From Marmoricola sp. (GTDB taxonomy: Bacteria > Actinomycetota > Actinomycetes > Propionibacteriales > Nocardioidaceae): a stretch of DNA of 64,000 nt. The stretch spans positions 62,001 through 126,000 of the forward strand of contig JAOPYE010000003.1 of NCBI GenBank assembly GCA_025964775.1, given 5' to 3'. Position 1 is the first letter of the stretch. The number at the start of each line of letters is the position of its first letter. The position numbers and the translations under genes were made by a program. Positions 7,066 through 12,583 of the stretch are shown here, piece after piece. Under the pieces are notes generated by a model. It made no database searches. It was not told where the DNA came from and saw only the letters and a list, made by a program, of their open reading frames with translations.

Positions 7066-8643
7066 GTGCACACCCGTCGTCGGTCTCGTCATGCGTTCGT
7101 GATTGCCCTGGTCTGGGCGCTCGCGACGCTGCTTGTCCCGACCCCTCCGGCGGGCGCGACGTCGTCGCTGCTCTGCCTGGGATTCACCGGCTGCGCCAGG
7201 TCCGGCCACAGCAGCTTCGGGTACGCCCCGACCAACTACAACAAGATGTGGTGGCGGATGTACTCCGGCCACAACTGCACCAACTACATGGCCTACCGGA
7301 TGATCCAGTCGGGGATGCCCGTGGCGCGGCCGTGGTCCAGCAGCGGCGACGCGCGCTACTGGGGTGTGGTCTTCAAGTCCAGGACCAACCAGACGCCCCT
7401 GGTCGGATCGGTCGCGTGGTGGGACAGCAACCATGTCGCCTACGTGCAGCAGATCATCGACGCCAACACGATCATCATCAGCGAGGACCACTACGGCGGT
7501 GACTTCGACTGGCGCAAGATCGTCCGCAGCGGTGGTGGCTGGCCGACCGGGTTCATCCACCTCGAGGACGAGTCGGTCACTCCGACGGCGCCACCGACCG
7601 TGATCGGCACACCGCAGGTCGACGCGCCGCTCGCCATCAAGCCCGGCACCTGGAACCGCACCGGCGCGACGTACAAGTACCAGTGGCTGGCGAACGGGGC
7701 CGCGATCACGGGAGCCACAACCACCACGTACACCCCGACCCCGGCCGAGGTCGGTGACGCGATCTCGGTCAAGGTGACCGCGGCGAAGATCGGCTACAGG
7801 ACTGGGTCGAGCACCGCCGCGGCGACCGCGCGGACGATCCCGGGCGTGATGACGGCCCTGACCGCGCCGGTGCTCAGCGGCTTCGTCAAGGTCGGCGGGG
7901 TCCTGAGCGCGTCGACCCCGACCTGGAACCCGGCGCCAAAGGCCACCACCTACACCTGGACCGCCAACGGCGCGCCGGTGCCAGGAGCGACCGCCCCGTC
8001 GCTCAAGCTCGGTCCGGCACTGCTCGGCAAGGTCGTCCGCGTGATCGCCACGGCGACTCGTGACGGATACACCACGACCACGTCGACCTCGGACGCCACG
8101 GTGCCGGTGGCTCCGGAGAAGCTCGACCTGACCTCCGAGCCGCGCCTGGTCGGCAATCCGCACGTCGGCGATGCCTACTCGGTCATCCCCGGGGTCGTCG
8201 GCCCCGCCGGGGTCCGGACCAGCTACCAGTGGCTGCTCGACGGCGTACCGATCGCCGGGGCGACGACGGGCAGCTACACGCCCTTGTTGACCGACCCCGG
8301 CCACATGCTGTCCGTCCAGGTGTCCTACACGAAGCCGGGTTACACCCCGATCGTGCGCACCCTGGCTGCCGTCCGGGCGGTGAAGTCGTACGCGCAGATC
8401 CGGATCGTCTCGCGATCGCACCGCAGCGTGACCGTGATCGTCACCGCCGGCGGTGTCCGGGTCGTCAACGGCGTCGTCACGATCTCCGATCACCGTGGAC
8501 AGCGGACGATCACCCTGGTCAACGGTCAGGCGACGATCTCACCGGACTGGCTGTACGCCGGGCCGCGGGTGATGACGGTCAACTACCTCGGCTCCCACCG
8601 GGTCGAGGCCGCGTCGCTGGTGCGGACCGTCGACATCCGCTGA
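7066..8643 (+). CDS. secreted CHAP-domain cell-wall hydrolase with Ig-like repeats
   Basis: The protein has 525 residues. An N-terminal signal peptide (HTRRRSRHAF then a hydrophobic run ending PPAGATS) precedes a CHAP domain with the catalytic Cys 71 in GHNCTNYMAYR and His 123 in DSNHVAYV. Three repeats of about 85 residues follow, each with a YKYQWLANG-, TYTWTANG- or SYQWLLDG-like strand and a GATxxxYTP turn, then a different Ig-like C-terminal domain. The family cleaves peptidoglycan peptides; the repeats probably hold it in the wall. GTG 7066 has TAGCGT 6 bases upstream. Its stop abuts the stop of the exporter gene on the other strand. Confidence 0.85.
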   Translation: MHTRRRSRHAFVIALVWALATLLVPTPPAGATSSLLCLGFTGCARSGHSSFGYAPTNYNKMWWRMYSGHNCTNYMAYRMIQSGMPVARPWSSSGDARYWGVVFKSRTNQTPLVGSVAWWDSNHVAYVQQIIDANTIIISEDHYGGDFDWRKIVRSGGGWPTGFIHLEDESVTPTAPPTVIGTPQVDAPLAIKPGTWNRTGATYKYQWLANGAAITGATTTTYTPTPAEVGDAISVKVTAAKIGYRTGSSTAAATARTIPGVMTALTAPVLSGFVKVGGVLSASTPTWNPAPKATTYTWTANGAPVPGATAPSLKLGPALLGKVVRVIATATRDGYTTTTSTSDATVPVAPEKLDLTSEPRLVGNPHVGDAYSVIPGVVGPAGVRTSYQWLLDGVPIAGATTGSYTPLLTDPGHMLSVQVSYTKPGYTPIVRTLAAVRAVKSYAQIRIVSRSHRSVTVIVTAGGVRVVNGVVTISDHRGQRTITLVNGQATISPDWLYAGPRVMTVNYLGSHRVEAASLVRTVDIR

Positions 8644-11352
8644 TCAGCCCACCTGGTTCGACGTGAGCTCGGAGTAGATGCCCTGGCGCGCAAGCAGGTC
8701 CTCGTGGGATCCGCGTTCGACGATCCTGCCTGCATCGAGGACGACGATCTGATCGGCGTCGCGCACCGTCGACAGGCGGTGGGCGACCACGAAGACCGTC
8801 CGGTCGGCCAGTGCTCCGCGCAGGCTGTCCTGGAGCGCCTGCTCCGACTCGGCGTCCAAGGCGCTGGTCGCCTCGTCCAGCAGCAGGACGGCCGGATCGC
8901 GGTACAGCGCCCGGGCAACGCAGATCCGCTGGCGTTCACCTCCCGAGAGCCGGGTTCCGCGTTCGCCGACGCGGGTCTGGTAACTCAGGGGCATCCGACG
9001 TACGAACTCGTCGGCGGTCGCAGCGCGCGCGGCCCTGACCACACGGTCCAGGTCCACCTCGTCCTCGCCGAAGGCGATGTTCTCCGCGATGGTGCCGTCG
9101 AAGAGGTGACTGTCCTGGAGTACGACGCCCAGCTGACGCCGGTAGGCGCGCAGCTCGAGGCTCGCGAGGTCCAGGCCGTCGCAGGTGATCGTCCCGGACT
9201 CGGGCTGGAGCAGGGCCGCGATGAGCATCAGGAGGGTGCTCTTGCCGGCGCCGGAGCGCCCCACGATCGCGACCGTCTCGCCCGGGCTCGCCTGGATCGA
9301 GATCTCCTCGAGGTCCAGGCGGTCGGCTGCCCCGGGATGCCGGAAGGACACCCGGTCGAGCCGGACCTCGCCCTCGAGCCTGCCGGGAACCCTCCGGTCG
9401 AGCTCGACCTGTTCGGGTTGCTGGTCGACGAACTCACCGAGCCGGTCGAGGAGCACGCGTCCCTGCTGGAAGACGTCCCACATCGACAGCAGCTGGGTCA
9501 GCGGCGAGCTGGTCACCATCACCAGCGACAGGAACGAGACGAACACGCTGATCGGGATCGACCCGTGGACGACCTCGTAGGCGCCGAACGAGATCGCCAG
9601 CGCGAGCGGCACGAGCGAGAGCACGGACAGCGCGCCCTCGTAGAGCATGATCGTGAAGTCGGCGCTGAACAGCCGGTCGGCGAGGTCGTCGAACTGGCCG
9701 GACAGCTTGCGCTGCAACTCGGCCTCGGCCCCGGCGGCCTTGACCGTGTCGACCCCACGGATCGCGTCGATCTGGCGTGACTTGTAGCGACCCCAGGACT
9801 CCTCGAGGCTCTGGAAGGCCGGACGAAGCCGGCGCCTCGAGGAGTACATCAGCACGAGGTAGAACGGGATGACCACGAGGTAGACCGCCGGCAGGCGAGC
9901 GTCCCAGTGGGTCATGATCACCCACGCGCCGATGACCTGGAACAGCGCCACGAACGCTCCGACGCCGCGCGTCAGGAAGAAGCTGCGTACCTCGCGGAGC
10001 CCGTTGAGCCGACGCTCGATGTCGCCGGTCCGCCGCGACGCGAAGAACGTCACCGGGAGCGCGAGGAGGGTCTCGGCGACGTGGTCGAGGCTGGCGCGGT
10101 CGATCCGGAGCGCGGCGCGCGTGATCACGTAGCGCTGGAGCACGGTGAGCAGGGTGGAGAGTCCGAGGACGCCGAGCACGACCAGCACCACCGGGATCAG
10201 GGAGGCTGTGTCCCTGGGCTGGATGACCTTCTCGATCACCCACTGGCTCGACAGCGGTACGGCGAGGGTCGCCGCTGCGATGCCGATCCCGCACACGGTG
10301 GCGATCGTGACGGCTGGCCACTCGGCTCGCAGGAACGGCCGGAAGAAGCGCGCTCCCGATGACGCGACCGGAGTCTCGAACAACGCGTCGGTCGGTGCCA
10401 CCAGCAGGGCGAAGCCGGTGAAGCGCTCCTCGAACGTCGCCCTGGCCATCGTCCCGGAGCTTCCCATCGGGTCCATCACCCGGACCTCGGACCGGCCGAC
10501 CTTGTCCAGCACCACCCAGTGGTTGCCGTCGACGTGGCACAGCGCGGGCAACGGCAGCTCGTCGAGGCGTGACGTCGACACGGTGGTCATCGCCGACTCG
10601 AGTCCGAGTGCCGCGGCGCCGCGGTGCAGGCCGAGCAGGCTGGTGCCGTCGGCAGCGGTCGACACCGCGTCCCGGACGGCGACCATGCTGATCGGGTGGC
10701 CGAACGCGCGGACGACAGCGGTCAGCGCTGCGGCGCCGCAGTCCATCTGGTCGAGGCCGAAGACCTGCGGGACCTTGTGCCGGTGCCGGGACCGGAAGGG
10801 TGACCAGTCGTCGGCGCCGGTGCTCCCGGGCAGGTTCGGCGGCTGCGTGCTCCCTGGATCGGCCGGCGCCGCAGCTTCCGGCTCGGGTGCCGGTGACCGG
10901 CGGGTCGCCTTGCGGTGCCGCGCCGGGGGGAGGGTGACCACGGAGTCGCGGAACACGTCGGCGCTGGGTGACCACAGCACGGCGAGTGCTCCCGCCACCG
11001 AGCCGTGCAGCGTCAGGGTCTGCAACGGACCGGAGGCCCGCACGCTGACCGGGGACCGTTGCCCGCTGGCGGCTTCCGGGGCGATCAGCGAACCCGGGCC
11101 GAGGACGCGGACCTGGCTCTCGGTTCCGTCAGGGCCGCGTGCGGTCGCGCGCGCCGAGCCGCTCACGACGACGTGCACGGTCTCGGGGACCTCACCTTCG
11201 CGGACGAGCTCCGTACCGAACTCGTGCAGTGCCGCCCTGAACGAGTGTTCAACCATCCTGCGCACCTCGATCGGGGCATCGTCGAGCGCGAGCAGGCCGA
11301 CCGGTAGCCGGCTGTCCGCGCTGGTGCCGGGCGAGCCTGATCGTGAGGCCAC
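8644..11352 (-). CDS. peptidase-containing peptide ABC exporter (C39/ABC, with cNMP-binding-like N-terminus)
   Basis: Predicted to cleave the leader from a small peptide and export the rest; 902 residues from GTG 11352. Domains in order: a cyclic-nucleotide-binding-like fold (about 10-140), a C39 peptidase with QMDCGAAAL (Cys 205), NHWVVL (His 278) and VMDPM (Asp), a membrane domain, and an ATPase with GRSGAGKST, LSGGERQR and VLLLDEATSALD. This layout is known from NHLM-type bacteriocin exporters. The start is chosen from TACGCT 6 bases upstream and from alignment with 52686; ATG 11430 would add 26 repeat-encoded residues. Downstream of the maturation gene and the precursor at 12323. Confidence 0.88.
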   Translation of the reverse strand: MASRSGSPGTSADSRLPVGLLALDDAPIEVRRMVEHSFRAALHEFGTELVREGEVPETVHVVVSGSARATARGPDGTESQVRVLGPGSLIAPEAASGQRSPVSVRASGPLQTLTLHGSVAGALAVLWSPSADVFRDSVVTLPPARHRKATRRSPAPEPEAAAPADPGSTQPPNLPGSTGADDWSPFRSRHRHKVPQVFGLDQMDCGAAALTAVVRAFGHPISMVAVRDAVSTAADGTSLLGLHRGAAALGLESAMTTVSTSRLDELPLPALCHVDGNHWVVLDKVGRSEVRVMDPMGSSGTMARATFEERFTGFALLVAPTDALFETPVASSGARFFRPFLRAEWPAVTIATVCGIGIAAATLAVPLSSQWVIEKVIQPRDTASLIPVVLVVLGVLGLSTLLTVLQRYVITRAALRIDRASLDHVAETLLALPVTFFASRRTGDIERRLNGLREVRSFFLTRGVGAFVALFQVIGAWVIMTHWDARLPAVYLVVIPFYLVLMYSSRRRLRPAFQSLEESWGRYKSRQIDAIRGVDTVKAAGAEAELQRKLSGQFDDLADRLFSADFTIMLYEGALSVLSLVPLALAISFGAYEVVHGSIPISVFVSFLSLVMVTSSPLTQLLSMWDVFQQGRVLLDRLGEFVDQQPEQVELDRRVPGRLEGEVRLDRVSFRHPGAADRLDLEEISIQASPGETVAIVGRSGAGKSTLLMLIAALLQPESGTITCDGLDLASLELRAYRRQLGVVLQDSHLFDGTIAENIAFGEDEVDLDRVVRAARAATADEFVRRMPLSYQTRVGERGTRLSGGERQRICVARALYRDPAVLLLDEATSALDAESEQALQDSLRGALADRTVFVVAHRLSTVRDADQIVVLDAGRIVERGSHEDLLARQGIYSELTSNQVG

Positions 11353-11430
11353 GCGCGGAGCGTATCGAGCGCCCGAGCTTGCTCGAGGTCGAGTGCGCGA
11401 CAGCGCGTTGACGAGCGAAGCGAGGATCAT
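11353..11430 (-). repeat. 78-bp start-proximal repeat upstream of the exporter gene
   Basis: Read on the minus strand it begins ATGATCCTCGCTTCGCTC and ends with TACGCT plus 6 bases before the exporter GTG at 11352. It aligns without gaps to 52608-52685, including the shared CGAGCAAGCTCGGGC. In this copy the internal frame has no stop codon and runs into the exporter frame. Confidence 0.85.
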
Positions 11431-11437
11431 GGCGGGC

Positions 11438-12295
11438 TCAGGCTACGACGTGCCGCGCGACGGCGTCGGCGATCACCTCGGCCCGAACGGTCGCCGCCGC
11501 ACGAGCCCGGGTCTCGGGATCGGCCAGCGTCGCAGCGGTGCGCGAGAGCACGCTGATGACGATCCAGCAGCCGGGGACCGGGAGCGGTCCGACGAGCTCG
11601 CCCGTCTGTGCCCCGGCCAGGGCGGCCCGCAGCGCCGGCGGGCTGACGTCTGCGAGGACCTGGGTGACGTCGTGAACGGCGATGCCCGCGAGCCCGGCGG
11701 CAGAGCGGAGGTCGACCCCGTCGCTGAGAACCCGGTGGCGCAGTTCCTCAGCGACCCCGCGCGCGCTGGTCACTACCTGGGTCACCGTCAGCCGGGTCCA
11801 GCTGAGCCGGTGGGTCTCGATCGCAGCGGTCAGACGCGCGGTCGTCGCGCCCGCAGCGATCAGTCGCTCGGTCCAGTCGGCCTCGTCGAAGCCAGCAGCA
11901 TCGACGGGGCTCGAGCCGAGCTCGCACGCGGCCGCAGCCGCGCTGGCCAGCTCCGAGGTGATGACATCGAACGAACCGGAGCAGAGCAAGGCACACCAGC
12001 CGCTGGCGGTCGACGTGCCCCCGACGACGTCCTCGGTCCAGCGGCGGAAGTCGTCGGCGGCGATCTCCCACCCGGCAAGCCAGGCCTCGAGCTGGTCGGC
12101 CCTCAGCAGGCCTCGTGAGCGCCGGAAGCCCTCCTCGACCTGGGCGGCGCTCGATGCAGTGACGGGTGCATCACGGCTGCCGACCCGCGTACGTCGTACG
12201 AGGTCGGCAACCGTGAAAGCGACGCCGTCTGCCGTGAAGACCGGGCGATCGGCGAGGTTCGGGGGAGCGTCAGGGAGGGGGACGCCCACCGTCAT
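11438..12295 (-). CDS. parvulin-like putative peptide maturation protein
   Basis: The protein has 285 residues and no signal peptide. The N-terminus (VFTADGVAFTVADLVRRTRV) and the C-terminal ELVGPLPVPGCWIVISVLSR stretch resemble the flanks of a PpiC/parvulin prolyl isomerase, but the core between them is mostly helical. This matches the PpiC-related peptide maturation group (TIGR04500-like) found beside peptide exporters; the family assignment is by resemblance only. It lies 27 bases after the precursor gene and 8 bases before the repeat that leads into the exporter gene, so the three are probably one operon. The chemistry it performs is unknown. Confidence 0.65.
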   Translation of the reverse strand: MTVGVPLPDAPPNLADRPVFTADGVAFTVADLVRRTRVGSRDAPVTASSAAQVEEGFRRSRGLLRADQLEAWLAGWEIAADDFRRWTEDVVGGTSTASGWCALLCSGSFDVITSELASAAAAACELGSSPVDAAGFDEADWTERLIAAGATTARLTAAIETHRLSWTRLTVTQVVTSARGVAEELRHRVLSDGVDLRSAAGLAGIAVHDVTQVLADVSPPALRAALAGAQTGELVGPLPVPGCWIVISVLSRTAATLADPETRARAAATVRAEVIADAVARHVVA

Positions 12296-12322
12296 CGAGA
12301 GTGGTGCTGTCGTGTGTGCAGG

Positions 12323-12460
12323 TCAGTCGATGTGAATGACCGCGGCGACGACGGCGCCGAGGATCGTGATCACGGGAGTGAGGTCCAGGAAAGCTGCTCC
12401 GCCGACAATGGCAGCGGCGTCGCTCTCGGTGGGTGCAAGATCCGTGAAGATGGTGTTCAT
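12323..12460 (-). CDS. putative bacteriocin-like precursor peptide with double-glycine leader
   Basis: The 45-residue product is read on the minus strand from ATG 12460, with GGGG about 10 bases upstream as a ribosome-binding site. Residues 1-21 form a leader of the double-glycine type (DLAPTESDAAAIVGG) with the cleavage site after Gly 20-Gly 21. The remaining 24 residues are strongly hydrophobic, begin AAFLDLTPV and end with His and Asp; they contain no Cys. It precedes the maturation gene by 27 bases and the C39-peptidase exporter in the same direction, which is the standard context for such precursors. I do not recognise the core peptide as a known family. Confidence 0.7.
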   Translation of the reverse strand: MNTIFTDLAPTESDAAAIVGGAAFLDLTPVITILGAVVAAVIHID

Positions 12461-12475
12461 TTCCGTACCCCGATT

Positions 12476-12583
12476 TCATAGCGCTCCGGCGGAAACCCGA
12501 AGCTGGTGCTCTCTTTGTAGGCCCAGGATGCCGCCTATTTCAATCAATCCACGTGCAATTGGCATTACGTTCTTGTTTCTCAT
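12476..12583 (-). CDS. possible second small peptide ORF with Gly-Gly motif
   Basis: The 35-codon frame runs from ATG 12583 to TGA 12476 and ends 15 bases before the precursor start at 12460. The product begins MRNKNVMPIARGLIEIGG, so it too has a Gly-Gly at residues 17-18, followed by 17 residues (ILGLQREHQ...). Base composition here is clearly lower in G+C than the surroundings. The ribosome-binding site is weak. It may instead be untranslated leader of the cassette. Confidence 0.3.
   Translation of the reverse strand: MRNKNVMPIARGLIEIGGILGLQREHQLRVSAGAL

Follow-up and report, generated by a model that had tools for sequence, protein, structure and literature searches.

A conserved precursor, PpiC-like protein and C39 exporter cassette in Marmoricola sp. 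that most likely releases a short hydrophobic peptide

We analyzed a 64,000-nucleotide stretch of Marmoricola sp. DNA (assembly GCA_025964775.1, contig JAOPYE010000003.1, positions 62,001 to 126,000; hereafter the window), in which three consecutive genes on the minus strand form a putative peptide export cassette. The first gene (12323..12460, minus), taken from the list of open reading frames (ORFs), has 45 codons. Its leader (12398..12460, minus) comprises 21 codons and ends in IVGG at its C-terminus, and its core (12326..12397, minus) comprises 24 codons, reads AAFLDLTPVITILGAVVAAVIHID, contains neither Lys nor Arg and has a computed linear mass of 2432.9 Da. An earlier interpretation made from the letters of the DNA (the sequence-only reading) had described this ORF with the same leader end and core, and all of these were confirmed in the window. 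The second gene (11438..12295, minus) has 285 codons and encodes a parvulin-derived, SurA/PrsA-like protein, here called PpiC-like, with no signal peptide by inspection. The third gene (8644..11430, minus) encodes a peptidase-containing ATP-binding cassette (ABC) exporter of 928 residues, whose true start may lie further in.

Four Pfam domains are arranged along the exporter, all on the minus strand. The N-terminal part holds a cyclic-nucleotide-binding-like domain (residues 72-141, 11008..11217; PF00027, 37.2 bits, cut-off 27.5), which had also been proposed earlier and scores over its cut-off. It is followed by a C39 double-glycine peptidase (residues 226-348, 10387..10755; PF03412, 87.5 bits, cut-off 22), an ABC transmembrane domain (residues 375-644, 9499..10308; PF00664, 109.2 bits, cut-off 28) and an ABC ATPase (residues 707-856, 8863..9312; PF00005, 123.3 bits, cut-off 25) with Walker A, signature and Walker B motifs. 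The C39 domain, which has solved relatives (6mpz, 8hf7, 4ry2), carries the catalytic-type residues Cys231, His304 and Asp320. The sequence-only reading correctly named an exporter with the C39 and ATPase domains, a Cys and a His, but numbered these residues 205 and 278; these numbers are 26 lower than in the 928-residue ORF and thus imply a later start. In three relatives (G005, G020 and G019), the exporter match crosses one stop, located before intact ORFs of 887, 895 and 900 codons, respectively. The exporter is a peptidase-containing ABC transporter (PCAT), in which a C39 domain with Cys and His is fused to membrane and ATPase domains.

Within a sample of 24 genomes of the genus, exporter homologues (68-100% identity) occur in six, namely G000, G016, G005, G020, G019 and G006. 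Each of these contains a single C39 domain, and the other 18 contain none. The precursor profile finds nine copies, all in these six genomes, and the order precursor, PpiC-like gene, exporter gene is kept in every one of them. The co-occurrence of precursor and exporter, which the sequence-only reading had proposed as a check, is complete in this sample (6/6 with the exporter, 0/18 without it). A broken frame in relatives that keep the exporter, or another precursor in its place, would have spoken against the proposed cassette; all six genomes instead keep an intact precursor, in favor of a double-glycine cassette with a small hydrophobic core. The six genomes are related, however, and do not count as six independent cases. 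The C39 Cys and His and the ABC motifs are kept in all six exporters, and the Asp in five. In the exporter of G019 (L035:5275-7974 (-)), the expected Asp is Asn (VRVMNPVG). Collectively, these results indicate that the cassette is conserved and real, and that the production and release of a short peptide is its most likely function. By sequence and linkage, the precursor qualifies as a putative double-glycine-leader substrate of the exporter.

In wider searches, the precursor profile matched one of 396 genomes of the phylum sample, the window's own, and the PpiC-like profile matched two of 293 genomes of the order sample, both of the window's genus. A scan of genome contigs gave four loci, all in relatives already known from the other searches. 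Beside the six, C39 genes occur in 4 of 294 genomes of the family (G038, G232, G787 and G713); inspection of the loci in G038 and G232 suggests clusters of the lanthipeptide type.

Eight precursor copies were aligned; the ninth, from G020, stands outside the alignment. Phe5, Asp7, Leu8, Pro10, Thr11, Ala15, Val19, Gly20 and Gly21 of the leader are invariant in the eight aligned copies, giving the motif F-x-D-L-x-P-T, an Ala at -7 and VGG at the predicted cleavage site. Pro29, Gly35 and the C-terminal Ile-Asp of the core are likewise invariant. The leaders have 20-21 residues and end in (V/I)VGG, and the cores have 23-26 residues. In the first copies at the six loci, the core starts with AAFLD and ends with HID, while the ninth copy ends with NVD. 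Additionally, G006 has a tandem second precursor (L036:8714-8845 (-)), whose core, PCAWADFPLCVLGTTITAFLHID, contains two Cys that might form a disulfide. The peptide had been called Cys-free, which is right for the window but not for the whole family, since this tandem copy departs from it. The computed linear core masses are 2579.0 Da for G005 and 2445.9 and 2504.9 Da for G006. Unlinked paralogues with the same type of leader and different cores are present in G019 and G020 (L043:1498-1629 (+) and L080:5376-5516 (-), respectively). As each cassette genome has one C39 match, no second C39 exporter is in sight for these unlinked precursors. In the last 19 leader codons of the six first copies, 4, 6 and 13 sites vary at codon positions 1, 2 and 3, respectively; by these counts, the leader variation is of the coding type. 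The last three leader codons are invariant in these copies even at third positions, but since such codons are common in high-G+C DNA, this carries little information.

All nine cores are hydrophobic (grand average of hydropathy, 0.88-1.93) and lack Lys and Arg, eight of them lack Cys, and no Ser, Thr or Lys position is conserved. Class II bacteriocins have a cationic core and an immunity gene. Neither feature was found here: Lys and Arg are missing throughout, and the cassette holds no further gene, so that the earlier remark that no immunity gene is evident was borne out. A membrane-active peptide of the bacteriocin kind, with no immunity gene of its own and tolerated through the envelope or exporter of the producer, would fit the small size and hydropathy of the cores as well as their patchy presence (6/24) and the additional copies, tandem or unlinked, whose cores differ. 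It would fit less well with the lack of basic residues and of an immunity candidate, and with a core start and end that are conserved across species in the first copies. We regard this explanation as possible but doubtful.

Upstream of the precursor gene, the six first copies share CGTAA(C/T), 20-21 bases, TTG(A/T)AA, 17-18 bases and TACAAA (TAGAAA in G016). In the window, this promoter-like element (CGTAAY-N20/21-TTGWAA-N17/18-TACAAA) lies at 12514..12569 on the minus strand. Among eight genomes searched, the exact composite occurs once each in G000, G005, G019, G020 and G006, always before the precursor, and is absent in G016, G011 and G017; the backwards pattern gave no match in any of the eight. 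The pattern was derived from the same sites that it was used to search for, and its uniqueness in the genomes is thus a finding, not an independent discovery. The element was not found upstream of the unlinked copies. Between the element and the start codon lies a small G+C-rich hairpin (12483..12503, minus). A similar hairpin appears in all eight folded upstream regions (8 of the 9 copies), with z-scores of -1.5 to +1.1 against shuffled sequences; the hairpins are not clearly more stable than the shuffles, so they weigh little by themselves. The promoter-like element also bears on whether the short ORF is a substrate at all. Chance short ORFs are common in G+C-rich DNA, and the 45-codon ORF is known here from its sequence, so it could be a regulatory or chance ORF beside an exporter of other cargo. 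This is highly improbable, given that seven aligned homologues, one of them unlinked, are 47-91% identical to the window copy, that the ORF is tied to the exporter in its presence and that it has its own promoter-like element.

The PpiC-like protein has a parvulin fold of the SurA/PrsA type, and its Pfam score of 25.4 bits falls just below the cut-off of 27. At the positions that we take to be those of the parvulin catalytic histidines, the last-strand His is absent in all six genomes (I, I, C, T, T and A in the columns of an alignment with SurA), and the first-strand His, placed by eye, is present in one (G005). A search with PADLOC gave no match for this protein, while the exporter matched mad3 and mad8. 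The sequence-only reading had seen a parvulin-like maturation protein; the parvulin-like part stands, whereas a role as maturation enzyme is less well supported, given the missing last-strand His and the Pfam score. On the same two grounds, the protein resembles a chaperone or partner more closely, and it is likely a cytoplasmic chaperone or a partner of the precursor.

A related possibility is that the core is chemically modified, as in ribosomally synthesized and post-translationally modified peptides (RiPPs). Here, the PpiC-like protein would be a MirC-like partner that presents the precursor to an enzyme encoded elsewhere, and the exporter would trim and export the product. Proteins of the MirC family TIGR04500 are reported to accompany ATP-grasp (graspetide) loci (PMC8939145), and one of them, MirC, was reported to be a required partner protein with a SurA-like chaperone part, needed for modification (PMC13097080). 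In the phylum sample, TIGR04500 matches 20 of 396 genomes at E 1e-5, one of them over the cut-off, and in G512 a TIGR04500 protein over the cut-off lies beside an apparent ATP-grasp synthetase, by inspection. Moreover, a distant genome, G633, has the same kind of exporter together with a lanthipeptide dehydratase and short double-glycine-leader ORFs. At the six loci, in contrast, the neighbors identified are pepN, CHAP, nitroreductase and metG genes, the other ORFs of these 14-16 kb stretches being unscanned. The best match to the graspetide synthetase model TIGR04187, the one modifying enzyme sought genome-wide, and this in the window's own genome alone, reaches 20.6 bits against a cut-off of 350. 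The scarcity of Cys and the lack of a conserved Ser, Thr or Lys position in the cores also argue against modification, and we consider this explanation unlikely. A graspetide in particular was rejected, with no synthetase over the cut-off in the own genome and no conserved acceptor residue in the cores.

To describe the nucleotide-binding-like domain, we compared the residues at the two positions that we presume to contact a cyclic phosphate, both placed by eye. In G000, G016, G005, G020, G019 and G006, the expected Glu is S, S, A, D, A and E, and the expected Arg is R, R, P, R, P and A, respectively. These residues are thus poorly conserved across the six exporters, and cAMP binding by this domain seems unlikely to us. 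Signal-gated export, as suggested by the sequence-only reading, may exist, since the domain itself is present, but the poor conservation at these positions does not speak for it. The profile of the exporter N-terminus matches 35 of the 396 phylum genomes. Among the matches listed, those to both the nucleotide-binding and C39 parts are, besides the own genome, in G581, G669, G677 and G633; the contig of G669 is short.

On the exporter side, the cassette is flanked by a CHAP-domain gene (7066..8643, plus), which is convergent with the exporter gene and touches its end, and then by pepN; on the other side lies an Rv2466c-like gene. The cassette had been placed between pepN and the Rv2466c-like gene, which is accurate for the latter, but pepN is not the immediate neighbor because the CHAP gene intervenes. 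The CHAP gene was considered as a part of the cassette and rejected, since it also occurs in the cassette-less G011, G017 and G007; the same three relatives show it to be an older resident of the site. No CHAP match was found in G003 and G013. In five of the six genomes, the cassette occupies one site, between the CHAP and nitroreductase genes, while in G006 it lies next door, between nitroreductase and metG (L036). In the cassette-less G011 and G017, the CHAP and nitroreductase matches are 57 and 41 bases apart, respectively.

The core tree was built from 23 genomes, G012 being left out for want of a nitroreductase match. It separates 8 genomes from 15 with a support of 1.000. The group of eight consists of the six cassette genomes with G011 and G017, and the other 15 all lack the cassette; supports within the group range from 0.076 to 1.000. 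In the core tree, G020 and G006 form a pair (0.999), whereas the exporter tree places G006 with G000 and G016 (0.959) and G020 with G005 (0.889). This disagreement, together with the other insertion site in G006, makes some transfer or recombination within the group of eight possible, which weighs against simple inheritance. A mobile origin was tried and rejected: the PpiC-like protein had no match among 72,556 plasmid records, and the exporter N-terminus matched 450 of them, none covering 80%, with the 15 best all matching through the C39 part.

We favor, with a probability of roughly 0.6, a minimal, enzyme-free, three-gene cassette of the HetC type that releases an anionic hydrophobic peptide. 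In this mechanism, the SurA/PrsA-like protein would attend the hydrophobic precursor in the cytoplasm, as its holding chaperone or escort and not as a catalytic isomerase, and would pass it on to the exporter. There, the C39 domain would cut the precursor after the double glycine, and the ABC unit would export the core. The cyclic-nucleotide-binding-like domain (CNBD) is probably regulatory or a docking site; its ligand may differ from cAMP, ppGpp being one candidate in view of what was reported for HetC. The released peptide would more likely serve as a signal, or act on its own producers within a narrow range, than resemble a cationic bacteriocin of the classical type. A bolder and only tentative extension is an enzyme-free signaling system based on peptides. 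In it, a partner protein of the RiPP type would have turned into a dedicated cytoplasmic chaperone for anionic peptides of high hydrophobicity, an alarmone-like ligand would gate the HetC-type exporter, and the several peptides of a genome, marked by a shared leader and by (H)ID at the C-terminus, would use one exporter. If so, the HetC-type exporter would gain a genetically linked substrate family.

Several observations weigh against the favored mechanism. Between the two closest genomes, the ratio of nonsynonymous to synonymous substitution rates of the precursor is 0.72, which is not low and comes from very few changes; the PpiC-like gene has a ratio of 0.34 and the exporter one of 0.15. 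The leader, with Phe at -17, Leu at -14, Ala at -7 and Ile or Val at -4, corresponds only partly to the classic double-glycine pattern. The exporter reaches 462.7 bits in TIGR03796 against a cut-off of 853.3, and its N-terminus is poorly modeled (mean predicted local distance difference test score, 55.0). The PpiC-like protein reaches 33.5 bits in TIGR04500 against a cut-off of 180, with no match in its own genome at E 1e-5; so far below the cut-off, the comparison with MirC is an analogy. Furthermore, its alignment by hhalign with one rotamase encoded near a comparable exporter on a Nostoc plasmid gave a probability of 24% over 32 columns, which is almost no relation. Finally, distant relatives of the cassette sit with modifying enzymes, and an unlinked enzyme may therefore act on the window peptide.

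Among the closest known systems is HetC of Nostoc PCC 7120, which as reported (PMC10986499) likewise joins an N-terminal CNBD, a C39 domain and ABC domains in one exporter and likewise has no adjoining membrane fusion gene. The likeness drawn here is one of domain order. As described there, HetC has cysteine protease activity, needs its nucleotide-binding domain and is required for heterocyst formation; the domain binds ppGpp with a Kd of 59 uM and is stabilized by ppGpp, GTP and GDP, whereas cAMP had no significant stabilizing effect. The same report gives the HetC substrate as unknown, with no double-glycine-leader gene found near hetC, whereas the window exporter adjoins a conserved double-glycine precursor and a SurA-like partner gene. 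New here are the peptide family, its occurrence in several copies in some genomes, and the presence of a candidate substrate genetically linked to an exporter of the HetC type. A conserved, simple precursor beside an exporter of this domain order makes leader cleavage and ligand gating directly testable for this exporter type. The cassette had been called unrecognised, which is half true, as HetC-type exporters and PpiC-related partner proteins have both already been described.

The partner protein has its counterpart in the rosaritide cluster MirABCD, which, as reported (PMC13097080), combines a precursor, a PpiC-related partner (TIGR04500) and a PCAT, as the window does. Unlike the window, it also has a graspetide synthetase, and its PCAT belongs to TIGR03796; the window proteins fall below both cut-offs. 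The window cassette suggests that PpiC-related partners may function where no modifying enzyme is linked to them; serving as escort and taking part in catalysis would then be separate roles. On a plasmid of Nostoc sp. HK-01, an exporter annotated as a cyclic nucleotide-regulated ABC bacteriocin/lantibiotic exporter (BBD63565.1) has the same four Pfam domains and 30% identity to the window exporter over 764 aligned columns, the nucleotide-binding domains not aligning in BLASTP. As in the window, proteins of the rotamase kind are encoded nearby, two of them within 3 kb. The Nostoc locus differs in that these two score over the Pfam cut-offs and in having an HlyD protein.

Among distant Actinomycetota, G581, G677 and G633 resemble the window in combining a CNBD-C39 exporter, a relative of the PpiC-like protein (E 9e-23, 1e-19 and 1e-6, respectively, over a small ORF set; in G633 it is truncated to a fragment by the end of the contig) and short double-glycine-leader ORFs. 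Groups of such ORFs lie near the exporters in L163 and L164. Unlike the window exporter, those of G581 and G677 (L161:6405-9608 and L163:7919-11020) have two CNBD matches before C39. The G633 locus (L164) further differs by its lanthipeptide dehydratase, G677 carries an ORF whose beginning is similar, and the leaders at all three loci are rich in Asp and Glu, with cores unlike that of the window. Collectively, because exporter and PpiC-like neighbors recur in distant Actinomycetota, and a CNBD exporter with rotamases on a Nostoc plasmid, the two proteins look like an old pairing, in places near RiPP chemistry, and the cassette of the window seems to be a pared-down form of it.

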